In this document: positions 12,030 through 31,939 of the stretch, one piece after another | How positions within the stretch are numbered: the stretch's first letter is position 1 | How the letters are laid out: each line of letters starts with the position of its first letter | NCBI GenBank assembly: GCA_028281465.1 | Contig: JANQJV010000426.1 | Coordinates: 1-32,157, forward strand | DNA from: Azospirillaceae bacterium | GTDB lineage: Bacteria; Pseudomonadota; Alphaproteobacteria; Azospirillales; Azospirillaceae | Direction: 5' to 3' | Length of the DNA stretch: 32,157 nucleotides | Position numbers and translations under genes: made by a program | The notes under the pieces: model-generated | The model's database searches: none | Seen by the model: the letters and a program-made list of their open reading frames with translations, nothing else | Told to the model about the DNA's origin: nothing

Positions 12030-13382
12030 TCACGTGATGGGGCCGCTGCGAACGCGGATCGTCGTCGGCACGCAGGGATTGAGCGCGGCAACCAAGAGTT
12101 GTCCGGCCCGATGGGCGTCGGCAACGGTCCGCCGCTTTAGGCCGTGGACGAAGACTCCATTCGGATGAAAGTTCCATTCCGTGGGTGCCACGGTGCGATA
12201 GTCGATGATCCGGTCGTCCTCCAGGCGGAGCCAGTGGGCGACGGGGCCCCGGATCGTATCCGCGACACCGCAGCCGCTGCCTTGGCTTTTCAATGCGGCG
12301 GATGGCACACCGGGGCGCGCCGGTATCTCGGACAGGAGTCCATTGAGCCGGCCCGGCAGCAACAAGGCATCCAGAACGGCGGCCAGAAGGCGCGCCGGCA
12401 GACCGTCGCCCCACCGATGCCTCGCCTCTTGCAGCACCGGGTGATGCAGCGTGGCAAATGGTCCGGTTTCCGCCGGCAGTCCATCCACGCTGGGGGCAAC
12501 GCCAAACAGGGGATCGCCTTCCAGATGGGCGCCGAACCACTGTGGATCGGTTTTGCTCAGCATTGGCAGGCCATGGGTGCCCACGGTGCGCATGGGCGGC
12601 GCCAGCGCTTCCCGGACCAGCAGCGCAGCCGCGGTTTCGCCCTGAGCGGCCCAGAGTTCGACAGCATCCACGCTGTCCAGGCTGGCTGTCGCCGGTCCGA
12701 GAATCTGTCGTCGCAGGCTACGGCCGGCGCGGTTGACCCGATCGATGGCTTGGCCGATGCGCCCCGCCGTTTCACCGCCTCCGGGGTGTCGCCAATCGAC
12801 TTCGCCAAATAGATCGTGGGCCAGCCCGGCCAGAGTATCGCGCACCGACTTGACCACGGTCAGGTCGACCGGCAGGTCCGCCAAAGCATGCCAATCGACC
12901 GCAAAACGCCATACCTGGCTTGTCAACATTTCCGACACGACCAGGCTTCGGCGTGCATGGTGCACGGCTGGTGCGGCGATGCGACCGGTTGCTGTTTCGG
13001 CTGCCGCGAGTCCGGCCAAGGTCTGCGCCGTGCCGCACACCGGAAACAGGGTCGAGAGGAGACGCAGTGCCTCGTCCAACGTACAGCCGCACAGAGCCCG
13101 TGCGGTACCGACCGGCCGGCTGGAGTGGATCTCGACCGAAACCACTGCGGTTTCCGCCAAGGTCAGTTCGATACCAAGTCCGCCGGCCATATCTGCGTGC
13201 CTGGCCTTCGTGGCGGGACCATTCAACTCCATGCCGTATGCGCCTTTTTGCCACACTTCGGGGACATGCGGCAGCATCGCGGCAAGTATGGGTTCGGTGC
13301 ATTGACATAGCTCAGGACTCAAGTGCTGGTGATAGACCCGGGCCTCGGAATGGATAGCCGGTTGCACCGTTGCCGGTTGCAT
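12030..13382 (-). CDS. hupK: HupK-like accessory protein related to NiFe hydrogenase large subunit
   Basis: The protein has 450 residues and resembles the [NiFe] hydrogenase large subunit without its metal ligands. In place of the N-terminal RxCGxC motif it has LFPVCGTAQ around Cys116. The C-terminus reads TEWNFHPNGVF and ends AALNPCVPTTIRV instead of DPCxxCxxH. HupK proteins of this type occur in hup/hyp clusters of alphaproteobacteria and are thought to act as a scaffold during iron-cofactor transfer; the exact role is unresolved. It is the promoter-proximal gene of the operon, 58 bp from the divergent MDR gene. ATG 13382 gives a full-length product, although internal starts cannot be excluded. 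It could be annotated simply as a hydrogenase large-subunit paralogue. Confidence 0.8.
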   Translation of the reverse strand: MQPATVQPAIHSEARVYHQHLSPELCQCTEPILAAMLPHVPEVWQKGAYGMELNGPATKARHADMAGGLGIELTLAETAVVSVEIHSSRPVGTARALCGCTLDEALRLLSTLFPVCGTAQTLAGLAAAETATGRIAAPAVHHARRSLVVSEMLTSQVWRFAVDWHALADLPVDLTVVKSVRDTLAGLAHDLFGEVDWRHPGGGETAGRIGQAIDRVNRAGRSLRRQILGPATASLDSVDAVELWAAQGETAAALLVREALAPPMRTVGTHGLPMLSKTDPQWFGAHLEGDPLFGVAPSVDGLPAETGPFATLHHPVLQEARHRWGDGLPARLLAAVLDALLLPGRLNGLLSEIPARPGVPSAALKSQGSGCGVADTIRGPVAHWLRLEDDRIIDYRTVAPTEWNFHPNGVFVHGLKRRTVADAHRAGQLLVAALNPCVPTTIRVRSGPIT

Positions 13383-13440
13383 GGGACGGTTGCCATGGTG
13401 CGCTGGCGCGTGCTGGCCGACGAAAGTCGAGGACAGGGTA

Positions 13441-14418
13441 ATGAAAGCATTGGTGATCGAACGGCAAGGCGGTCCTGAGGGCTTGGTCTACCGGGAATGG
13501 CCCGATCCCGAGGTGCGGCCGATGGATGTTCTGGTGCGGGTGCGCGTATGCGGCCTCAACCATTTGGATATCTTCGTGCGTCGAGGCATGCCGGGATTTC
13601 CCGTACCCATGCCGTTCATCTCCGGCGGCGATATTGCTGGTGAGGTTGCCGCGGTGGGGGCTTCCGTGACCCGCTTTGCCATCGGCGACCGCGTGGTGCT
13701 GAACCCGGTCACGCCGGAAGGCATGCTGGGCGAAGAGCTGCCCGGCGGTCTTGCCGAGTTCGTGCGGTGTCCAGAGAGCCACGTCATCCCCATTCCGGAC
13801 GGCGTTGATATGGAACAGGCCGCCTGTCTGCCGGTCGCGTATGGCACCGCCCGGCGCATGCTGTTGGATCGGGCACGGCTGCAGGATGGGGAAACGATTC
13901 TCGTTCTCGGGGCGAGTGGCGGCGTTGGCAATGCCGCGGTGCAGATTGCGCGCAACTTGGGGGCGACGGTCATTGCGTGTGCGGGGTCGGACGAGAAGTG
14001 TGCCCGGCTCGCTGAGATGGGCGCGCACCACACAATCAATTACACCATCGTCGATTTCAGCCGTGAGGCATGGCGCTTGAGTGGCAAACGCGGGGTCGAT
14101 GTGGTCGTCAATTACACTGGTGGCGAAACGTGGGTTCCCTCCTTGAAGACATTGCGCAAACAAGGACGTTTGGTCACTTGCGGAGCCACCGCTGGTTTCG
14201 ATCCACCGACTGATCTCCGATACATCTGGGTGCGGGAGCTCTCGATTCTTGGGTCCAATGGTTGGACGACCGCAGACATCGAGGCCTTGCTCGACGATGT
14301 GGCGGCTCAGCGGATCACGCCGGTGATCAGCCATCGCTTTGCGTTGTCGGAGGGGCGAGCGGCTGAGGAGATGATGGAGCGGCGAGCGATGTTCGGGAAG
14401 GTCTTGGTGCTGCCATGA
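13441..14418 (+). CDS. MDR-family zinc-type alcohol dehydrogenase / quinone oxidoreductase-like
   Basis: The protein has 325 residues and belongs to the medium-chain dehydrogenase/reductase fold. The N-terminal GroES-like domain contains CGLNHLDIFVRRG, a typical catalytic-site segment, and SGGDIAGEVAAVG. The Rossmann domain carries LGASGGVGNAAVQIA for NAD(P)H binding. The four-cysteine structural-zinc loop found in many relatives is missing: the text runs from VVLNPVTPEG almost directly to LPGGLAEF. Substrate is unknown; enoyl or quinone reduction and alcohol oxidation are both possible. ATG 13441 follows a GAGGACAGGG-type ribosome-binding site, and open frame upstream to 13381 overlaps the divergent promoter. 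The stop overlaps the thioesterase ATG as ATGA, so the two are coupled. Confidence 0.85.
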   Translation: MKALVIERQGGPEGLVYREWPDPEVRPMDVLVRVRVCGLNHLDIFVRRGMPGFPVPMPFISGGDIAGEVAAVGASVTRFAIGDRVVLNPVTPEGMLGEELPGGLAEFVRCPESHVIPIPDGVDMEQAACLPVAYGTARRMLLDRARLQDGETILVLGASGGVGNAAVQIARNLGATVIACAGSDEKCARLAEMGAHHTINYTIVDFSREAWRLSGKRGVDVVVNYTGGETWVPSLKTLRKQGRLVTCGATAGFDPPTDLRYIWVRELSILGSNGWTTADIEALLDDVAAQRITPVISHRFALSEGRAAEEMMERRAMFGKVLVLP

Positions 14419-14855
14419 CGTTGGAAACGGACACACCAGCGCCGTTGCGGTCGCTTGAGGAGTGGCAGGCGTTCATCGCTGCCCCGCCGTTGCACCGGTT
14501 CTTGGCGCTGCAGGCCGTGTCGTTCGACGCCGATCGGGGCGAGGCCATCCTGCGCTTGCCGCTGCGCCCGGAGTTCTCCCGATCCGCCGAACGCCTAGAA
14601 TGGCATGGGGGCATGACCGCGACCTTGATCGACATCGCCGGCGATTATGCCATTGCGGCCCTGACCGGCCACGGTGTCCCGACCATCAATTTGCGGATCG
14701 ACTTTCTGCGCATGGCCGGACCATCACCTTTGACCGCCACGGCACGTGTGCGCAAGGCCGGACGGACCATCGGCACCGTCGACGTGGAGGTACACGACGA
14801 TATGCATCGCGTGATTGCACTCGGACGCGGCACGTACAGACTGTTCCAGGGGTGA
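14415..14855 (+). CDS. PaaI-type hotdog acyl-CoA thioesterase
   Basis: The protein has 146 residues with the single hotdog domain of the PaaI/YdiI group. The active-site region is EWHGGMTATLIDIAGDYA (HGG motif with the following Asp on the central helix), and later TINLRIDFLRMAGPSPL and ATARVRKAGRTIGTVDVEV complete the fold. It should hydrolyse acyl- or aryl-CoA thioesters in the cytoplasm as a homotetramer; the acyl group cannot be read from the sequence. It is coupled to the MDR gene by a 4-bp overlap. The convergent neighbours encode a CoA ligase and a VOC protein, which fits a shared CoA-thioester pathway. Confidence 0.87.
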   Translation: MTLETDTPAPLRSLEEWQAFIAAPPLHRFLALQAVSFDADRGEAILRLPLRPEFSRSAERLEWHGGMTATLIDIAGDYAIAALTGHGVPTINLRIDFLRMAGPSPLTATARVRKAGRTIGTVDVEVHDDMHRVIALGRGTYRLFQG

Positions 14856-15069
14856 GGTCGGTGATGCCGTGTGGGGGACGTGCATCCCATACGACTACAA
14901 TACCGCTTTGAAGGACTTGTTGTGTCGGGAGGGGCCGGTTCTGCTTGAGCCCTTAACCGGCTCGTGGGCCGAACACCTGGATTTGAAGCCGGGTCCGTCC
15001 ATACGCAACCGGCATCCGGATTTTGTCGACCGCACGCTTGCAGGATGGGACGTCGACCCATCTGGACCT

Positions 15070-15978
15070 TCAGGGCGATCCGGATATGCGGAGGGATTGG
15101 CGCATTGGGTCCGCTTCGAACAGAACGATCGCGCCACATCCAAATGCTGGCGCAACCGCGACCGAGCCGGCGTCGATCCACCGTGTTGCCACCGCATTGG
15201 CCGCAAGCAGCCGGCTGGTCGCCTCAAGGTCCGATACCGAAAACCGAACCGCGGCGAGACCTTGGGATGGCACGGACTCTGTTGCAAACATCTTGGCGAA
15301 CAGATCCGGCCGCATCGCTTCGATGCATCCTTGGTCCAACGGCAGGCGATACACGCCGTTTCGCGGCGGTTCGGACCGAAGTCCGGTGATGGATTGCAAA
15401 CGGTGCATCGTGTCCGCCGGTTCGGTGGACACCAGGACGGCGGCCGACAAGGCGCGTGTCCCGTTGTCGTGCGCCAAGAGTTGTGGCTGCCAAAGGACCT
15501 CAGGGGTTGGGTGTTCGATGAAGAACAGATCGGTTTCCGGGAACACGCCGTCCTCGAGGTGCACGAAACGGAACCGGGCGGTGGTTTGGCTGTGACCGGC
15601 CCGCACCGACCGGCCCAGCTCGGTGACCTCCGGTTGGACACCCGCCACGTGTCGCCGCAAAGCCTTGTGGGTCGCGATCGCATCGCGGCAGCGCAGGGCC
15701 AGTAGGCACCAACCGGGGCCGCGCACCAATCGATCGAGAACGTATTGGTGCGGGCGGGTTGGGTCCGTGACGCCAAGGATTTCCAGGTACCCGGCCTGGA
15801 ACATGGCGCAGTGGTTGCCGCCGCCCCAAACCGTTGGGGCGTCACCGGGTTGTAGCGGCCCCTGATGGGAGCTCTTCGCGGTCAATTGGAATCCAAGGCG
15901 TTCAAACGCCGTCCGAGCCTGGTCCAGGTCGGGCACAACGATGGCAACGTGATCGAGGGTAGGGGACGAGGGCAGCAT
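15070..15978 (-). CDS. VOC (glyoxalase-like) family protein
   Basis: The protein has 302 residues with two vicinal-oxygen-chelate halves. The first starts LDHVAIVVPDLDQARTAFE and contains GGGNHCAMFQAGYLEILGV; the second contains LSAAVLVSTEPADTMHRL. This arrangement matches the glyoxalase-like group in which one half carries the metal site. The reaction is unknown; lyase, dioxygenase and isomerase members exist. It starts six bases after the CoA ligase stop, so they are almost certainly co-transcribed. The 214-bp gap to the convergent thioesterase contains only a weak 7-bp hairpin at 14934-14961. Confidence 0.75.
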   Translation of the reverse strand: MLPSSPTLDHVAIVVPDLDQARTAFERLGFQLTAKSSHQGPLQPGDAPTVWGGGNHCAMFQAGYLEILGVTDPTRPHQYVLDRLVRGPGWCLLALRCRDAIATHKALRRHVAGVQPEVTELGRSVRAGHSQTTARFRFVHLEDGVFPETDLFFIEHPTPEVLWQPQLLAHDNGTRALSAAVLVSTEPADTMHRLQSITGLRSEPPRNGVYRLPLDQGCIEAMRPDLFAKMFATESVPSQGLAAVRFSVSDLEATSRLLAANAVATRWIDAGSVAVAPAFGCGAIVLFEADPMRQSLRISGSP

Positions 15979-15984
15979 GGCGGA

Positions 15985-17553
15985 TCAATGAGCCTGTGCC
16001 AGGTCACCACCAAAGGCGTCGTGCAGCCGTTTGGCAACTTCCCCACGATCCACCTTGCCGGCACCGTTCAACGGCAGGGCGTCGACCACCAGGATGCGCC
16101 GAGGATGGGCGTAGGCTGGGCCCTTGGCAAGGCAGTGCGCCTTAAGCGCCGCTTCGGTGACACCATCACCGTGCCGAGCCATGACCAGGGCCACGGGTAC
16201 CATGCCTTTGACCGGGTGTGGGAGCGGCACCACCGACGCGTCGTACACTGCGGGGTGTCGGAGGAGCAGATCTTCGACTTCTTTCGGATATATGTTCTCT
16301 CCGCCGCAGTTGAACATGTCGTCCGTTCGGCCGCGGAAGTAGAAGAATCCATCATCGTCGACCTCGAACAGATCGCCGGTGGCCAGCCATCCATCCTTTA
16401 GGCGCCTGGCATTCACATCGGGGAGATTATGGTAGCCCGGTGTCACACCCGGATTGCGCACCCACAGTTCCCCGAACCTGGAGTCTGCCGTGCCGTCATC
16501 CCGGACCAATTTCACCTCGCCTTCGGGCCAGGCAACACCGCAACTACCGATCGGGACGACCCGTCCGTCGACCGGCGGTCCGATCATCACCGGGCCACCC
16601 TCAGTGAGGCCATAGCTTTCGCCGACCTTGACACCAAAGGCCGTTTCGACAGCACGCATCAACTCTTCTTGGACGGGGGCCGACCCTAGTTTGAGGCTCT
16701 TGAGCGCAGTGAAATCCAGTCGATCGATTAGGTCACGGTGTTGCAACAGTTTTGTGAAGACCGCCGGTACGGCACCAGCCTGGGTGCACCGGTATTCAGA
16801 GAGAACGGTCAGGAACCGCCGCGGCTCGAAATCCGGCAGCAGCACGACGGAGCCGCCAGCGTACAGCATGGGCTTGATGGCGCCGGCCATGGCATTCTTG
16901 TGGTACAACGGCACTGCCACCAGTGCCCGGGCGGCCGTGTCTGCAGGCCAGTATTTTTGTGTCGTCCGGATCCACCAAAGCTGTCCGGCGTGGGTTAGGA
17001 TCACCCCTTTGGGACGGCCCGTCGACCCGGACGTGTAGGGTTGAAATGCCGGATGGTCGCCCGGAATCGGTGGCGGGTCGAAGTGGGCCGGCGTGGCCGC
17101 CGTGGCAGCATGGTAGTCTTGCCAATCCGGAGGAACCGGTTGGAAGGCCCACCGATGCGCCAGGTCGCAACCTGACAGGACAGGGAGCGCGTGTGGTGCG
17201 CAGGACGGATCGACGACAGCCGCGAGACACCTGGCATCTCGGATGATGTAGTCCAGAGCATCGGCGCCCAGCTTGGTGTTGATCGGCACCGGCACGATAC
17301 CGGCCCGCATGGCGCCGAACATGATGTCGACGAACTCGTGGCGGTTGCCCACCACCATCGCCAGTCTGTCACCGGGAACCAGACCGCTGCCACTCAGAAG
17401 AGCGGCGAAGCGGTCCATCCGGTCCTCAAGAGCCGCATAAGTCAATTGAACTGGCCGAGGACCGCACAGGTCGATGAGTGCAATCGCGTCGGGCCGGCAG
17501 GACGACGCGGGCCGAAGCCAGTATCCCAGATTGTTCACGATGCGGTCATGCAT
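15985..17553 (-). CDS. Class I adenylate-forming acyl-CoA synthetase
   Basis: The protein has 522 residues of the ANL superfamily and should activate a carboxylic acid to its CoA thioester using ATP. Core motifs are clear: YTSGSTGRPKGVILTH (phosphate loop), SYGLTEGGP, ATGDLFEVDDDGFFYFRGR (A8 hinge Asp/Arg), NCGGENIYPKEVE and LNGAGKVDRGEV with the catalytic Lys. The size and motifs fit medium-chain, long-chain or aromatic ligases rather than acetyl-CoA synthetase; the substrate is not readable by eye. ATG 17553 gives the homologue-like start MHDRIVNNLG. A GTG at 17625 would add 24 residues without a domain. TATAAA at about 17644-17649 on the minus strand may be part of its promoter, but no good -35 is seen. 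Confidence 0.88.
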   Translation of the reverse strand: MHDRIVNNLGYWLRPASSCRPDAIALIDLCGPRPVQLTYAALEDRMDRFAALLSGSGLVPGDRLAMVVGNRHEFVDIMFGAMRAGIVPVPINTKLGADALDYIIRDARCLAAVVDPSCAPHALPVLSGCDLAHRWAFQPVPPDWQDYHAATAATPAHFDPPPIPGDHPAFQPYTSGSTGRPKGVILTHAGQLWWIRTTQKYWPADTAARALVAVPLYHKNAMAGAIKPMLYAGGSVVLLPDFEPRRFLTVLSEYRCTQAGAVPAVFTKLLQHRDLIDRLDFTALKSLKLGSAPVQEELMRAVETAFGVKVGESYGLTEGGPVMIGPPVDGRVVPIGSCGVAWPEGEVKLVRDDGTADSRFGELWVRNPGVTPGYHNLPDVNARRLKDGWLATGDLFEVDDDGFFYFRGRTDDMFNCGGENIYPKEVEDLLLRHPAVYDASVVPLPHPVKGMVPVALVMARHGDGVTEAALKAHCLAKGPAYAHPRRILVVDALPLNGAGKVDRGEVAKRLHDAFGGDLAQAH

Positions 17554-17744
17554 ACCGGTCGGTCCGACTGACAGCTGTTGAAAAGCACCGGTCAGACCGG
17601 GCCGATGACAAGACATCCTGACCACAGGGTGACAGTACTTAATTTATAATGAAAGTTCCGGGCCGGATGGATTGTGTCTCCACGTAGGGGCCGGCCGTGG
17701 AGATCGACATGCGGCGACGGCCACTGGTCGCCGCGCTGCCGCGG

Positions 17745-17978
17745 TCAGGTGCGTTTGTGATGAATGATCGGGGTCAATTGGTCGCCCCAATTGCCTTGTC
17801 CATCATGGTACCGCGTGGCCCGAATGAGTTCCACCGACACGCCGGCATCGACCGCTTTGACCACGGCCAGATTGAGCCGGTGCAGGGAATTGGCGAGCAT
17901 CCGAATCGCGCTGTCCTGGGCGCCGGAACGATCGGACTCGGGATCGGCCGGGGCATCATGGTAGCCGCTTTCGCTCAT
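17745..17978 (-). CDS. Small protein of unknown function (77 aa)
   Basis: ATG 17978 begins MSESGYHDAPADPES and is preceded by AAAGGAC nine bases upstream. An acidic N-terminus is followed by a helical, weakly amphipathic stretch (about 24-50, IRMLANSLHRLNLAVVKAV) and a polar tail ending HHKRT. No membrane segment, metal motif or known domain is recognised. The frame continues open upstream to 18128, but that extension crosses the strong hairpin at 18057-18095 and reads as low-complexity Arg/Pro text. It stands alone between the CoA ligase and the receiver protein. The clear ribosome-binding site and sensible composition favour a real gene. Confidence 0.55.
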   Translation of the reverse strand: MSESGYHDAPADPESDRSGAQDSAIRMLANSLHRLNLAVVKAVDAGVSVELIRATRYHDGQGNWGDQLTPIIHHKRT

Positions 17979-18056
17979 GTGACGGTTGTCCTTTCGATCG
18001 CAGCGAAGGGTAGGGGGGCTGGCTGCGCAGCCGATGACCCCATTCATGTCATACCG

Positions 18057-18104
18057 CCGACTCCGCGGCAAGCCCGGGGCCCGCCGCGGAGTCGGTTGCT
18101 TTTT
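18057..18104 (+). terminator. Strong Rho-independent terminator, orphan on the plus strand
   Basis: A 13-bp perfect stem (18057-18069 with 18083-18095, CCGACTCCGCGGC type) with a 13-nt loop is followed on the plus strand by TTGCTTTTT. On the minus strand no T-run follows, so termination is for plus-strand transcription. No plus-strand gene lies upstream until 14855, so the transcript it ends is not evident. A palindrome GGCTGCGCAGCC at 18021-18032 lies just upstream. Confidence 0.7.
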
Positions 18105-18213
18105 GAAGCCGTCGCGCCGATTTGTCACAACCAGTCTTCAGTGAACGTCCCAGGTTTTTGCGTGGGTTCAGTGAGCGGAGGCGCGCTGTGGCGAGGAAGG
18201 CGGAAACCTGGTC

Positions 18214-19404
18214 ATGAAACGGGCCGACAAACGGCTATCCCTCAAGCTGCTCTACGTTCACAACGACAGCCTTGTGCAGAACGTGGTGAGCCCTGCGGTC
18301 AACGCGATGGACGATTTGAGCGTCGGTGTGGAGATCGATCGGGCCGCCGAGAACGCCATGGAACGACTTAAAGTCGGCAAATTCAGCCTCTTGTTCACGG
18401 ACATTGATGTCGCTCGGGATGCCGAGGGGGACGGCTTGTCTCTGGTGCGTGAGGTCCGCGGTGAGAGTGGCCTATTCCATTTGCCAGTGTCGATCATCAG
18501 TGCCTCCGGGTTGGAAGCCGACGTCGATGCAGCGCTCGCACTGGACATCGACGACTACGTCAAACTACCAGCAAGCATGCGCCGTGTGCAGAACACGGTG
18601 CGTCGGTGGGCCTTGGCGTTCGAAGGACAGAATATTGATTGGTCGGCGTTGTCTCCACATCAGGCCAAACTGCTGCGCAAGAGCCTGTCGACCTGCGTCC
18701 GCATCTTCTCCAAGGCACAATCGATCCGACATCCAGGCGGCACGGTCGAGGTCGGTTCCCTCGATTTTGCAATGGTGAAGAGCAATTGGCACGCGCTACT
18801 GCAGGCGCATAATGACGAAAGAGTATCCCACGTCGTGGCCGACCTGCAGGGCAAGGATCTGCATCGCTACCGCATCAGCCTTAAAGTGGCAGTCTATTTG
18901 ACCGATTTTTTCGTACGCGTCACGGATACCGGGGCCTACGAGCAAGCGGCCTTGATCAATCTTCTGGGAGACGTGTTCACAGGTGGTCTTTTGTCTTGCG
19001 CCGGTTTTTCCAATTTGAGCGGTCCACTGTTGGAAAAGCCCAAACCATTGAACGAGGAAGAACGGTATAACATCGAAGAAACCAATGTGGCCGAAATTCG
19101 GAAAGTACTGGAGAAACAGCCGGAGGATTATCCGGAGGTGGTCAAGCAGATCTGCCTCTATCAGGCGGAGAAATGCGACGGCAGCGGTCCCATGCAGCTA
19201 CGGCGTGAAGAGATTCCACAGTTGGCTCTGATGACCAGTATCGTGCGCGCGTATCTCGATCTCGTACATGGTGTGCGGAGCCACGACACAAAACTTTCCA
19301 AGAAGCAAGCTATCGTTTATTTGAAAGAACGATCGCACAAATTCGACCGTGAATTGCTCGAGATCTTTATCCACCAGGTATTGCCGAGTTCCGGCGGGCA
19401 ATGA
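18214..19404 (+). CDS. Receiver-domain protein with degenerate HD-GYP output
   Basis: The protein has 396 residues. An N-terminal receiver (about 10-130) has a plausible phospho-acceptor Asp63 in LLFTDIDV, Ser96/Ser98 in SIISASG and Lys117 in DDYVKLP. The C-terminal half (about 145-390) follows HD-GYP architecture but lacks catalytic residues. The HD pair reads Gly252-Asp253 (INLLGDVF), HHE is replaced by QAE at 317-319, and the GYP motif reads CDGSGP at 321-326 without the Tyr. The terminal helix LSKKQAIVYL...KFDRELLEIF still matches the family. It is therefore unlikely to hydrolyse c-di-GMP and may act as a protein-protein output. The Shine-Dalgarno is weak (GGAAA, with GAGGAAGG further upstream). 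No kinase gene is adjacent. Confidence 0.78.
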   Translation: MKRADKRLSLKLLYVHNDSLVQNVVSPAVNAMDDLSVGVEIDRAAENAMERLKVGKFSLLFTDIDVARDAEGDGLSLVREVRGESGLFHLPVSIISASGLEADVDAALALDIDDYVKLPASMRRVQNTVRRWALAFEGQNIDWSALSPHQAKLLRKSLSTCVRIFSKAQSIRHPGGTVEVGSLDFAMVKSNWHALLQAHNDERVSHVVADLQGKDLHRYRISLKVAVYLTDFFVRVTDTGAYEQAALINLLGDVFTGGLLSCAGFSNLSGPLLEKPKPLNEEERYNIEETNVAEIRKVLEKQPEDYPEVVKQICLYQAEKCDGSGPMQLRREEIPQLALMTSIVRAYLDLVHGVRSHDTKLSKKQAIVYLKERSHKFDRELLEIFIHQVLPSSGGQ

Positions 19405-19568
19405 TGCGGTCGCCGCCAATGGAGGGCCGCATCCGACGTCGATAAAGGGGAGCAAAACCCCACCGGAGTGCTGGCGATGTCACGCTGCTTGCGGCACAGT
19501 GGCCACGGAACTCATGCGAAGCGCCTGGCCACCGCTGTGGCGCCGTTCACCCTGGGAGGTTCGTCGCC

Positions 19569-20678
19569 ATGCAGGTTCGAGCCGCCGTTGCCTACGAGGC
19601 CGGTAAGCTGCTCAGTATCGAGACTGTGACCTTGGAGGGCCCCAAGGCGGGTGAAGTCTTGGTCGAAATCAAGGCGACCGGCATCTGCCACACAGACGCC
19701 TTCACCTTGTCCGGTGCCGATCCGGAAGGATTGTTCCCGGCCGTGCTTGGCCACGAAGGGGCCGGTGTCGTGGCGGACGTCGGCGCCGGAGTTACCTCGG
19801 TGCGTCCGGGTGACCATGTGATCCCGCTGTACACACCGGAATGCCGGCAATGCGAGTATTGCCTCCACCCAAAAACCAATTTGTGCCAGGCGATCCGAGC
19901 GACGCAGGGCAAAGGCGTCATGCCCGACGGCACCAGCCGGTTTTCCGTTGATGGTACCCTGCTGCACCACTACATGGGCACCTCCACCTTTGCCAATTTC
20001 ACCGTGTTGCCAGAGATCGCCGTTGCAAAAATCCGCCCCGACGCGCCGTTCGACAAAGTCTGTTACATCGGTTGCGGCGTGACGACCGGGATTGGTGCGG
20101 TCATCCATACGGCCAAGGTGGAGCCGGGTGCCAAGGTCGTCGTGTTCGGTCTGGGTGGAATCGGTCTCAACGTGGTGCAGGGCGCGCGCCTGGTCGGCGC
20201 CGACATCATCGTGGGCGTCGACATCAATGCCGACCGCAAGGCCATGGCCGAGCACTTCGGTATGACCCATTTCGTCAACCCTCAGGAGTTGGACGGCGAT
20301 CTGGTCAAGTATCTGGTCGACTTGACCGGCGGCGGTGCCGACTACAGCTTCGAATGCATCGGTAATGTCACGACCATGCGCCAGGCTTTGGAATGTTGCC
20401 ACAAGGGTTGGGGCGAATCGGTCATCATCGGCGTGGCCCCGGCCGGAGCGGAGATTTCCACGCGGCCGTTTCAGCTTGTCACAGGCCGGAGCTGGCGAGG
20501 CACTGCGTTCGGCGGGGCCCGTGGTCGGACCGATGTGCCGCGGATCGTCGACTGGTACATGGACGGGAAGATCGAGATCGACCCCATGATAACCCATACC
20601 CTACCGCTGGAGCGCATCAACGATGCCTTCGATCTTATGCACGCGGGCAAATCGATCCGCTCGGTTGTCGTGTATTGA
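19569..20678 (+). CDS. frmA: S-(hydroxymethyl)glutathione dehydrogenase (class III alcohol dehydrogenase)
   Basis: The protein has 369 residues, the usual length. The enzyme oxidises S-hydroxymethylglutathione, formed from formaldehyde and glutathione, with NAD+; it can also act in S-nitrosoglutathione reduction. Catalytic zinc ligands are seen in TGICHTDAF (Cys) and GHEGAGVV (His), with the third Cys in IGCGVTTG. The structural zinc site has [17 protein letters not shown]. The nucleotide fold carries [25 protein letters not shown] near the C-terminus is typical of class III. GGGAGG lies upstream of ATG 19569. No fghA (S-formylglutathione hydrolase) follows directly. The gene is also called adhC, flhA or adhI in related bacteria. 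Confidence 0.95.
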
Positions 20679-20861
20679 TGCGGCCACGACGGTCGGCCAT
20701 CGGCGTCAACACCGGGCGTTACCGGGACACCGACCGGTAGGATAAAACTTAAGAATCAATGCGTGAGAGGGATGCTGCGAGTCTGGTATGGAGATGAGCG
20801 GATCGGTAACATGATGGTCTGATCGGGATTGGGCCCAGCAGGATCGGAGCGGAGACGCGCC

Positions 20862-21692
20862 ATGGCTGAACCACAATACGCCCTTGTCACGTGTGATCCG
20901 GTTTGGTCGCGCATCCGCGACGAGGCCGAAGCGATGGCTCGGGAAGAGCCGGTGATGGCGAGTTTTTTGTATGCGACCGTGCTCAACCACGACCGGTTCG
21001 AACAGGCGCAGACGTATCATCTGGCTCAGAAACTGGGCAATGCCGACGTGTCGGCCATGTCGCTGCGCGATGTCTTCGACGAAGCCATGGTCGACGACGA
21101 TACGCTGGGTGCGGCGGCGCGGGCCGATATCGTTGTTGTGTTCGACCGTGATCCGGCGTGCCTGCGTTACGTCGAGCCGTTGCTGTTCTTCAAGGGCTAC
21201 CATGCGCTGCAGTCACACCGCATTGCCCATTGGCTGTGGCGCCACAACCGGCGGACCTTGGCTTTGCATCTGCAGAGCCGCGCGTCCCAGGCCTTTGGCG
21301 TGGATATCCATCCCGCCGCGCGCATTGGGCGCGGTGTCTTCATGGACCATGCCACAGGCATCGTGATCGGCGAGACCGCCGTGGTGGAAGATGATGTGTC
21401 GATGTTGCACAGCGTCAATCTGGGCGGCACCGGCAAGGAGACCGGTGATCGTCACCCCAAGATTCGCCGGGGCGCTCTCATAGGGGCCGGCGCCAAGATT
21501 CTGGGCAACATCGAAGTCGGCGAATGCGCTAAAGTCGGTGCGGCGAGTGTGGTTCTGAAGGATGTGCCCGCGCGGTGCACCGTTGCTGGCGTGCCTGCCC
21601 GGGTCATCGGCTGCGTCGACTGCGACCAACCATCCCGCTCCATGGACCACCACTTGCCGCCGACGGTCTTGGAGGAACAGATCCAGCCATGA
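20862..21692 (+). CDS. cysE: Serine O-acetyltransferase
   Basis: The protein has 276 residues. It makes O-acetylserine from serine and acetyl-CoA, the first committed step of cysteine synthesis. The N-terminal helical domain contains PVWSRIRDEAEAMAREEP and FFKGYHALQSHRIAHWLW, followed by the left-handed beta-helix of hexapeptide repeats with the catalytic text DIHPAARIGRGVFMDHATG, GETAVVEDDVSMLHSVNLGG and GVPARVIG. ATG 20862 gives the conserved start MAEPQYA; the frame is open 11 codons further up, but with no better ribosome-binding site. The upstream 183 bp separates it from frmA. Its stop overlaps the ATG of the decayed nucleotidyltransferase frame (21689). Confidence 0.95.
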   Translation: MAEPQYALVTCDPVWSRIRDEAEAMAREEPVMASFLYATVLNHDRFEQAQTYHLAQKLGNADVSAMSLRDVFDEAMVDDDTLGAAARADIVVVFDRDPACLRYVEPLLFFKGYHALQSHRIAHWLWRHNRRTLALHLQSRASQAFGVDIHPAARIGRGVFMDHATGIVIGETAVVEDDVSMLHSVNLGGTGKETGDRHPKIRRGALIGAGAKILGNIEVGECAKVGAASVVLKDVPARCTVAGVPARVIGCVDCDQPSRSMDHHLPPTVLEEQIQP

Positions 21693-21870
21693 CGCTCCGC
21701 GGCGGGTGTCGCGGGACAAACGGGACTCATAGGCTGCGGCTGGCGGCGTCACGCGACGCCCGGAACCTCAGCATTTTCGGCTCCGTCGCCCGTGGCGATG
21801 CCCACGATCGCAGCGATCTGGTTTTCCTTGTCGACTGGAGGTCGGACGGTCCCTGCCGACGACCCCCCCC
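21689..21870 (+). pseudogene. Decayed MntA-type nucleotidyltransferase (antitoxin) fragment
   Basis: The frame from ATG 21689 reads NLSIFGSVARGDAHDRSDLV then FLVDW, matching the GSxARG(x)nSDxDxxVD signature of minimal nucleotidyltransferases of MntA/HepT toxin-antitoxin pairs. The second metal Asp (SDLD in active members) is Val. Homology stops about 50 residues in, at a run of eight C at 21863-21870, where a frameshift or deletion is likely. The C-terminal half of the domain is missing, and the frame runs into HEPN-like sequence. I read it as a dead antitoxin gene fused by deletion to the remains of its toxin. Confidence 0.65.
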
Positions 21871-21880
21871 TTGCAGGAAT

Positions 21881-22207
21881 CCGGAGGAGCGCCGTCGGGC
21901 CATCCTTGAAGCGATGGCCGCGATGGACCGTCGCCGTCCGCCGAACCGCGGCAGATTCGAGAATGATGAGCTTGTTCAGGGATGGAGGTGGTGGCGCCTG
22001 CAAATCATCAGCGAGGTGGTTCGCGTCTTACCGGCCGAGGTTCGCGCTGGTGCCCGGGACATACCCTGAGGCGAGATTTTCGGCATCGAGACCATCCTGG
22101 GTCTCGATAACTTCAGAAGTGAGGCCGAAATTGTTTGGGCTGTGGCAACGCATGACGTCCCGGTACTCAAGGCTGCCATGGAGCGATTGTTGGCATCATT
22201 GGTGGAT
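21881..22207 (+). pseudogene. Decayed HepT-type HEPN toxin (DUF86-like) fragment
   Basis: The same frame continues with ERRRAILEAMAAMDR, then FENDELVQGWRWWRLQIISE and VRVLPAEVRAGARDIP before an in-frame TGA at 22067-22069. Reading through, GEIFGIETILGLDNF, then SEAEIVWAVATHDVPVLKAA and MERLLASLVD give the rest of a HEPN (HepT/DUF86) domain. In intact members the stop position is commonly Trp (IPW), so TGG to TGA is the likely nonsense mutation. The RNase motif RNxLVHxY has become ETILGLDN, losing both Arg and His. The product is therefore both truncated and inactive. The convergent O-methyltransferase stop at 22248 lies 40 bp further on. Confidence 0.68.
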
Positions 22208-22247
22208 CGGTCGCAGGTTGTTGCGCAGCGCCACATCCCCTGCGGGA

Positions 22248-22931
22248 TCACGGCCGCTTGCGCGCGAGGGTCAGCCCGTCACCGATGGGGACTAGGCTGA
22301 GGGTGACGCGTTCATCGCGGTGCAGTTTCTCGTTCAATGCCCGGATGGCGACGGTGTTGTCGGCTTGATCGGTTGGGTCGGCGACGCCGCCACTCCACAA
22401 CACGTTGTCGACCATGATCAGACCGCCAGGACGCACAAGCTCCAGGCAGCGCTCATAATAATAATCGTAATTGCGCTTGTCCGCATCGATAAACGCCATG
22501 TCGAAACGGCCGGCTTCGGATCCGTCGGGCCGGGCCGGGTCAAGCAGGGCATCCAGGATATCGCGCGCCAAGCCTAGATGCAGCGCGATCTTGCCGTCGA
22601 CGCCAGCTTCGCGCCAGTACCGCTTGGCGATGTTGGTCCAGGCCTCATTGGCATCGCAGCACACAATGCGGCCCTTCGGCGGCATGGCCAGTGCACAGCA
22701 CAGGGACGAATAACCGGTGAAGGTGCCAATCTCGATCATGCGCAGAGCACCGGTCAGCTCGACCAGGAGCGCCATGAACTGCCCTTGCTCTGGGCTGATC
22801 TGATAGCGTGCCGCTTCGCCCAGCGTTTCCGTCTCGCGGCGCAACCGGACCAGAAGGTCGGGCTCGCGCAACGAAGAGTCGAGCAAATAGCGGTACAGCT
22901 TATCGTTTAGGTTGAGGGAGGTACGAGACAT
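22248..22931 (-). CDS. SAM-dependent O-methyltransferase (CCoAOMT-like)
   Basis: The protein has 227 residues of the caffeoyl-CoA/catechol O-methyltransferase type (class I Rossmann fold). Motif I is MIEIGTFTGYSSL, followed by VCCDANEAW, the metal-binding FDMAFIDADKRNYDYYYE and VRPGGLIMVDNVLWSGGV with Asp and Asn ligands. The substrate is unknown; bacterial homologues methylate catechols and other diphenols. ATG 22931 gives MSRTSLNLND, matching homologues. The longer frame to 22991 runs across a hairpin and is rejected. The gene lies downstream of acsA on the same strand with a 67-bp gap, so they may be co-transcribed. Confidence 0.88.
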   Translation of the reverse strand: MSRTSLNLNDKLYRYLLDSSLREPDLLVRLRRETETLGEAARYQISPEQGQFMALLVELTGALRMIEIGTFTGYSSLCCALAMPPKGRIVCCDANEAWTNIAKRYWREAGVDGKIALHLGLARDILDALLDPARPDGSEAGRFDMAFIDADKRNYDYYYERCLELVRPGGLIMVDNVLWSGGVADPTDQADNTVAIRALNEKLHRDERVTLSLVPIGDGLTLARKRP

Positions 22932-22998: not shown

Positions 22999-24936
<1,938 letters not shown>

Positions 24937-30295: not shown

Positions 30296-31939
30296 ATGAA
30301 TAACAAAAAGAATAGGCTTATTAGTGACATAAATCATTTTGCTTTGTTTTTAGCATTTCATCTTTATTTCGCTGTTGCAGAGGCTGGGGAGGCTCCGCGT
30401 TTCGTATTGGAACGCGTGCCGATGCATGCCTATGAAGGTGGATGGGAGCATTTCGTCGGTGGCGGTGTGGCCGTTTTCGACTGTTCCGGCGATGGCTTTC
30501 CGGAACTGTACGTCTCTGGCGGGACGGCGCCGGCCTCACTGCTGCGTAACCGCAGCGGTGTGGCCGAGGCATTGGATTTTGTCCCGCTCGCCGACACGCC
30601 GTTGGCCCTGAAGGGGGTTACCGGAGCTTATCCCCTTGATGTCGACGATGACGGACACATGGATCTTGCCGTTCTGCGCGTCGGCCCGGATGCATTGTTT
30701 CGGGGATTGGGTGGATGTCGGTTCGCACTCGCCAATGAGGCCTGGGCGTTCGACCCGGGGCGGGCCTGGACGACCGCGTTCAGCGCGATGTGGGAGCCGG
30801 GCCAGCGGCTGCCGACTCTGGTCTTCGGCCATTATGTCGACCGGCAGCGTCCTGGCGCGCCGTTTGGCACCTGCCACGACAATGCCCTGCTGCGCCCGAT
30901 CGACGGGGAACGCCGATATGGTCCGCGTGTGGCGCTACGGCCCGGCTACTGTGCGTTGTCCATGCTGTTCAGCGATTGGGACCGTGACGGCACGCCCGAC
31001 CTGCGCGTCAGCAACGACCGGCAGTATTATCGCGGTGGCCAGGAACAGCTCTGGCGGGTGCCGCCTGGTCTCCGACCGCGCGCGTACACTTTGGCCGATG
31101 GCTGGCGGCCCTTGAAGATCTGGGGCATGGGCATCGCCAGCCATGACCTGACCGGCGACGGCCTGCCGGATTATTTCTTGACCAGCATGGCCGACAACAA
31201 GCTGCAGACTTTGGCGCCTCAACCCTTTGGCGCGGACCGTCGGCCCGAGTTCACCGACATCGCGTACACTCTGGGGGCGACGGTGCACCGGCCGTATACC
31301 GACGGCGCCATTCGCCCGTCGACGGCCTGGCATGCCGAATTTGCCGACGTCAACAACGACGGCCGGATCGATTTGTTCGTCGCCAAAGGCAATGTGGAGG
31401 GCATGGTCGATTTCGCCCAGCGCGACCCGAACAACCTGCTGATCGGCCAGGCTGACGGCGGATTTGTCGAAGGGGCGCCGACTGCCGGGATCGTGACCTT
31501 CGAAAAAGCCCGGGGCGCCGCAGTCGCAGACCTCAACCTGGACGGCATGCTCGATCTGGTGGTGGTCAACCGTGCTGCGCCGATGGAACTCTGGCGCAAT
31601 GTTGGTTTTGGTGAGCGCGACCGGCCGCGCCGCTTGGGCGCCTGGTTGATGCTCCACCTGCACCAACCGTCTCCGCGCAGCAATCGCAAAGGCATCGGCG
31701 CCTGGGTCGAGGTGCGCAGCGGCGCCCATATCTGGCGCCGTGAGGTGACCGTGGGCGGGGGCCACGCCGGCGGCCAAGCCGGCTGGCTGCATTTCGGCCT
31801 CGGCACGGCGGAGCGCGTGGACGTGCGCGTGCAATGGCCCGATGGCCAATGGGGCCCCTGGCTGCGCAGCTTCACCAACCATTTCATTCAGGTCCGCCGC
31901 GGCGCCGAGCGGCCGAGGTACTGGTTGCCGGGGGCGTGA
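30296..31939 (+). CDS. Exported CRTAC1-type FG-GAP/VCBS repeat protein with ASPIC/UnbV C-terminus
   Basis: The protein has 547 residues. A short basic start (MNNKKNR) and a hydrophobic stretch (about 15-27) form a signal peptide ending near AVAEA. At least six Ca-binding-type repeats follow: DCSGDGFPELYV, DVDDDGHMDLAV, DWDRDGTPDLRV, DLTGDGLPDYFL, DVNNDGRIDLFV and DLNLDGMLDLVV, as in beta-propeller FG-GAP/VCBS proteins. The C-terminus (about 465-530, GIGAWVEVRSGAHIW, HFGLGTAERVDVRVQWPDG) matches the ASPIC/UnbV module of CRTAC1 proteins. ATG 30296 has AAGG six bases upstream; the open frame to 30116 is antisense or shadow to the cytochrome gene. The first 28 codons are strikingly AT-rich compared with the rest. 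Function is unknown, probably periplasmic or surface exposed. Confidence 0.87.
   Translation: MNNKKNRLISDINHFALFLAFHLYFAVAEAGEAPRFVLERVPMHAYEGGWEHFVGGGVAVFDCSGDGFPELYVSGGTAPASLLRNRSGVAEALDFVPLADTPLALKGVTGAYPLDVDDDGHMDLAVLRVGPDALFRGLGGCRFALANEAWAFDPGRAWTTAFSAMWEPGQRLPTLVFGHYVDRQRPGAPFGTCHDNALLRPIDGERRYGPRVALRPGYCALSMLFSDWDRDGTPDLRVSNDRQYYRGGQEQLWRVPPGLRPRAYTLADGWRPLKIWGMGIASHDLTGDGLPDYFLTSMADNKLQTLAPQPFGADRRPEFTDIAYTLGATVHRPYTDGAIRPSTAWHAEFADVNNDGRIDLFVAKGNVEGMVDFAQRDPNNLLIGQADGGFVEGAPTAGIVTFEKARGAAVADLNLDGMLDLVVVNRAAPMELWRNVGFGERDRPRRLGAWLMLHLHQPSPRSNRKGIGAWVEVRSGAHIWRREVTVGGGHAGGQAGWLHFGLGTAERVDVRVQWPDGQWGPWLRSFTNHFIQVRRGAERPRYWLPGA

Follow-up and report, generated by a model that had tools for sequence, protein, structure and literature searches.

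What does a strong hairpin with a T-tract do in the space between two divergent genes, when no gene on its own strand stands behind it? This question is raised by a locus in a stretch of 32,157 nucleotides from an Azospirillaceae bacterium (assembly GCA_028281465.1, contig JANQJV010000426.1), referred to here as the window. An initial annotation had read the locus as an orphan plus-strand terminator and had proposed that it ends a short plus-strand RNA at about position 18104, possibly antisense to the leader of a small gene on the other strand. The site occupies the 235 bases that separate the divergent starts at 17978 (minus strand) and 18214 (plus strand), and comprises or adjoins the following features:

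17618-17645, plus strand: weak promoter-like site, CTGACC-16-TAATTT, the best on this strand in 17600-18060 (score 10.1)
17745-17978, minus strand: small gene of 77 aa, SMc00767 family (NF050174, 100.1 bits), with its ATG at 17978 and AAAGGA upstream
18021-18032, no strand assigned: 12-nt palindrome GGCTGCGCAGCC, at chance level
18056-18096, plus strand: predicted terminator hairpin, found by folding, with 13 Watson-Crick pairs, one G-U pair and a 3-bp inner helix
18096-18104, plus strand: T-tract TTGCTTTTT, seven T in nine positions, split by GC
18214-19404, plus strand: divergent gene of 396 aa with receiver-like and HD_5 domains, from profile matches

The hairpin and its two neighbouring genes

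The 13-bp stem with a T-run that the initial annotation had described was recovered in full: the arms at 18057-18069 and 18083-18095 form 13 Watson-Crick pairs, to which the G-U pair 18056/18096 adds a fourteenth, and TTGCTTTTT follows as the tail. Folding of 18050-18104 as plus-strand RNA gave -35.4 kcal/mol (z -5.2), a value that none of 200 shuffles equalled, and the locus thus possesses the stable G+C-rich hairpin of an intrinsic terminator. As in other intrinsic (Rho-independent) terminators, the DNA is intergenic and a GC-rich stem-loop leads into a T-tract; the window hairpin differs from them in its stem of 13-14 bp, which is longer than usual for this class, in a loop region of 13 nt, in the GC that splits the T-tract and in the lack of a preceding gene. 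The previous plus-strand gene stops at 14855, 3.2 kb away, in agreement with the 3 kb given before, and the two plus-strand ORFs that cross the region are non-coding by their scores (-18.2 and -42.8). In both custom scans the hairpin and tail at 18057-18104 were the top T-tailed hairpin of the window. The runner-up reached only -16.3 in the stricter scan, and in the looser one a near-equal runner-up (-34.7, at 30573) lies within a predicted gene with its T's distant from the stem. A stock terminator scan overlooked the hairpin because it limits loops to 3-8 nt.

The small gene on the opposite strand, previously regarded as unknown, belongs to a known family: its match to NF050174 scores 100.1 bits against a curated cut-off of 95, which makes it a member of the SMc00767 family, named 'acetate metabolism repressor' by NCBI. 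A 2007 paper in the Journal of Bacteriology reportedly deals with aceA, SMc00767 and glcB. Of 82 genomes of the bacterial family, 47 contain a member of the protein family (46 above the cut-off), spread over 3 of 13 genera, and 45 of the homologues were found in genus g11; from one named record (A. oleiclasticum) we infer the genus to be Azospirillum and the bacterial family to be Azospirillaceae. The start assigned to the small gene is in accord with those of 31 homologues from this genus. In A. oleiclasticum the homologue is surrounded by other ORFs, in a neighbourhood unlike that of the window. The window also contains an acetate-CoA ligase gene, AcsA (22999-24936, minus strand; TIGR02188, 1041.6 bits, cut-off 724.95); some 5 kb separate it from the gene of the SMc00767-type repressor.

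The divergent gene at 18214 matches HD_5 with 47.8 bits and Response_reg with 29.7 bits, the latter just below the cut-off of 30.2. By eye, the motif region of its product looks degenerate when held against what we take to be the HD-GYP motif. No close relative of this gene was found in 81 other genomes of the family, where the best-scoring match has 28% identity; a search of 384 other genomes of the class, with up to four candidates scored per genome, gave no relative at E 1e-20, and within the order, represented by the same 82 genomes as the family (its own included), no orthologue at E 1e-15 was available for a comparison of leaders. Upstream of the gene lie a direct repeat, TTCAGTGAACG and TTCAGTGAGCG, at 18137-18147 and 18167-18177 (30 nt from start to start), and an 8-bp inverted repeat at 18150-18157 and 18204-18211, which together are possibly a regulator site.

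T-tailed hairpins and known RNAs in the same genome

The setting of the hairpin was compared with a genome sample of 1,149,108 of 6,326,300 bases (18%) in 81 stretches including the window, a non-random sample made up of contigs already met in matches, of low contig numbers and of contigs taken in steps of ten or twenty. Genes were called with a custom caller that may miss small genes, which makes counts of orphans approximate; the first calling (threshold 12) did not contain the small gene, which scores 11.3 in the later model, and the second used a threshold of 10. Among 123 T-tailed hairpins of -15 kcal/mol or lower, 17 were intergenic behind an opposite-strand gene, and at -18 kcal/mol or lower this was the case for 3 of 47. 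At -20 kcal/mol or lower 33 hairpins were left: 21 in intergenic DNA behind a gene on the same strand, 9 within predicted genes, 2 at contig ends and a single one in intergenic DNA behind a gene on the opposite strand. This last one is the window hairpin at 18056-18096, itself the second strongest of the 123. Strong T-tailed hairpins with no gene behind them are rare in this genome.

Whether the T-run belongs to the hairpin can be judged from its base rate, which at intergenic positions is 2.2% per side for a loose T-run and 0.13% per side for a tail with seven T in nine. The sample holds 30 hairpins with perfect arms of at least 12 bp, of which 19 are intergenic; a T-run adjoins four of these 19 against about 0.85 expected, and the other 15 are without one. 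From the low rate of the tail and the excess of four over 0.85 it follows that the T-run in the window is unlikely to be accidental. A score in the style of d'Aubenton-Carafa, set up from the general rules and giving weight to T near the stem, yielded 51 positive sites, among which the window hairpin takes rank 19 with 14.9, a low place owed to the GC that interrupts its T-run. Calling it as good as any terminator therefore holds for the hairpin, which comes first in the window, and fails for the U-tract. Five intergenic orphans score at least 10, namely mmgR (39.6), L080 (34.7), L083 (19.5), L085 (15.7) and, in last place, the window; L083 is the back face of a bidirectional hairpin.

The first of these served as a positive control, as the second, U-tract-weighted scan brought out as an orphan terminator the known sRNA mmgR (suhB, RF00519; L094:15496-15567, minus strand, 59.4 bits, gathering score 41), which ends in a seven-pair terminator stem and eight T. 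It shares with the window locus an upstream neighbour gene on the strand opposite to the terminator. It differs in its 7-pair stem, its eight uninterrupted T and its Rfam family, whereas the window region has neither a family match nor a relative found. At the 3' ends of the genome's 6S and RNase P RNAs no T-tailed hairpin was seen by eye, so that mmgR alone of the three known RNAs inspected ends in one; an orphan terminator is therefore neither required for an RNA gene nor proof of one. A further orphan terminator of this genome, at L080:7462-7482 (minus strand), consists of an 8-bp stem and ten T and marks a candidate RNA gene; the neighbouring gene upstream lies on the opposite strand at a distance of 348 nt, and no Rfam match was found in L080, which was among the 22 of 80 sampled stretches besides the window on which Rfam was run.

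Conservation and signs of a plus-strand RNA

At the DNA level no homologue was found of 17950-18150 among 58 other relatives (two short unrelated matches), of 17979-18213 among 81 other genomes of the family, or of 17979-18213 among 384 other genomes of the class, a selection from a larger group (one short unrelated match); the three sets of genomes overlap, and in the class search up to two first-look candidates were scored per genome, and a weak homologue could escape it. The short matches were discarded as unrelated: that in L010 falls within an open frame of 319 aa, LysR-like by eye, that in L160 within a long open frame, and that in L011 has flanks unlike those of the window. Plasmids and phages held no homologue of 17900-18260, and viral contigs no copy of the exact stem pattern. 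The conserved sequence or structure expected of an sRNA was thus not seen in the 58, 384 and 81 other genomes.

Within the genome itself a loose form of the stem pattern occurs at 23 places, with CCGCGGAGTC confined to the window's own two entries, and a DNA search with 17950-18150 returned only the region itself; on these two grounds we rejected a dispersed repeat. Repeats of that kind are present elsewhere in this genome: an intergenic palindromic repeat, GCTAGAGCnnTTTC...GAAAnnGCTCTAGC, is exact at L124:1378-1423 and L137:9247-9292 and looser at L094:16395-16440, L134:7634-7679 and L146:8826-8869, and a hairpin GGAGCGCCGGCa...TGCCGGCGCTCC recurs with an identical flank at L084:41-68, L118:8315-8342 and L123:13103-13130.

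Upstream of the small-gene homologues in genus g11 the window hairpin was found in none of the 31 examined, a count that covers T-tailed hairpins at 31 of the 45 homologues, with the A. oleiclasticum locus and a weak match in G029 outside it. One of these upstream regions (L055) carries a T-tailed hairpin distinct from that of the window, weaker (-16.5) and located on the opposite strand.

A promoter for a plus-strand RNA was sought with a stock scan, which returned none upstream of the hairpin on that strand in 12500-22500, and with a custom matrix based on general promoter rules. In 17700-18060 the best plus-strand score was 7.1 at 17872, which falls short of the 75th percentile (7.55) for shorter stretches. 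Extending the search to 17600-18060 gave the site at 17618-17645, whose 10.1 lies between the 90th and the 95th percentile (10.4) of 1986 stretches of 235 nt; an RNA from this site would be about 450 nt long and would run antisense across the full length of the small gene. The fold of the 71 nt before the hairpin (17979-18049) is no more stable than that of shuffled sequences (z -0.11). Rfam 15 gave no match at gathering score anywhere in the window, and with the E limit raised to 5 the region 17600-18300 gave three matches, all far below that score. The palindrome that the initial annotation had placed just upstream is indeed at 18021-18032, at a frequency that does not exceed chance: perfect 12-nt palindromes number 14 in the window and 0.49 per kb in the genome sample. 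A search of the literature returned no publication on the locus.

The short plus-strand RNA that was proposed to end near 18104 therefore finds its argument in the orphan position, one of 33; it is not helped by the promoters nearby, none of which is good, by Rfam, by the chance-level structure upstream, by the homology searches or by the 31 homologues without the hairpin.

What the hairpin may do

A plus-strand terminator with no gene behind it implies that RNA is made from this strand, and our preferred reading, held tentatively, is that of a plus-strand intrinsic terminator that perhaps ends a short or antisense RNA. The hairpin and T-tract would act as a predicted Rho-independent terminator on the plus strand and would most likely end a short untranslated RNA whose 5' end lies across from the start of the SMc00767-type gene or shortly before it. 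If such an RNA overlaps the leader and start codon of the small gene it might act in cis as an antisense RNA, and if released it might act in trans as an sRNA. The plus-strand terminator is located upstream of the minus-strand start codon at a distance of 78 nt, as in cis-antisense RNAs that cover a gene start, a likeness of geometry alone, and antisense action on the small gene is possible on account of this position. The locus is most simply explained by a plus-strand RNA with its end at 18104, and the odds that this is a small RNA are at best even. In the longer version an antisense RNA of about 450 nt, specific to the lineage, would run from about 17652 to 18104, span the SMc00767-type repressor gene and tune it; this we hold to be quite improbable.

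The terminator could also be real and have no functional RNA to end, either shielding the divergent gene from stray antisense transcription that comes out of the minus-strand genes or remaining as a relic of a lost plus-strand gene. Somewhat unlikely in our judgement, this account agrees with the absence of a convincing promoter and of a conserved RNA among the searches above, with a neighbourhood that A. oleiclasticum does not share, where other ORFs surround the small-gene homologue, and with a divergent gene that has no close relative in the 81 family and 384 class genomes (at best 28% identity in the family). ORF scores, the sole means by which a lost gene was looked for, revealed no trace of one, and insulation alone leaves the strength of the stem unexplained. 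The inverted repeat may instead act on the minus strand, as a hairpin in the 5'-leader of the small gene that affects stability or translation, or as a protein-binding palindrome in the DNA, in which case the plus-strand T-run would be the A-rich beginning of the minus-strand leader. The fold is indeed better as minus-strand RNA, at -42.0 kcal/mol (z -6.05) compared with -35.4 (z -5.20), with an uninterrupted 18-bp helix in which two G-U pairs take the place of two A.C mismatches on the plus strand. This pattern fits a structure kept in the RNA of the small-gene leader and, as one case of two adjacent pairs, is only a hint. Strong intergenic hairpins without a T-run are the majority in the genome sample (15 of 19), and a weak minus-strand promoter-like site, GTGACA-17-CAAAAA, predicts an RNA start at about 18093. 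The score of that site is 6.6, between the median of 5.7 and the 75th percentile of 7.55, a seven-of-nine T tail would have to have arisen by chance at its rate of 0.13% per side, and among the 31 genus g11 homologues, in which T-tailed hairpins were counted, none has the hairpin upstream; we consider a role in the leader or as a DNA palindrome unlikely.

Regulated attenuation of the 18214 gene in its leader, with a plus-strand start before the hairpin and release under some condition, would suit the strand and the distance of 110 nt between hairpin and start codon. Attenuation needs a competing antiterminator, and the strongest pairing that the 5' arm can make with 17979-18054 reaches -15.8 kcal/mol, which 71% of 500 shuffles equal or beat; on this ground we rejected the attenuator, and rate it as very improbable. 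Rfam also gave no riboswitch match, and the leader 3' of the hairpin folds at chance level (z -0.65).

As it stands, the feature is a good predicted terminator with a putative transcript. Should an RNA end at 18104, as in our preferred reading, the gene of a small regulator of acetate use would have a species-specific RNA opposite it. Orphan terminators are moreover a usable lead to RNA genes in genomes such as this one, in which the second scan also recovers a known sRNA.
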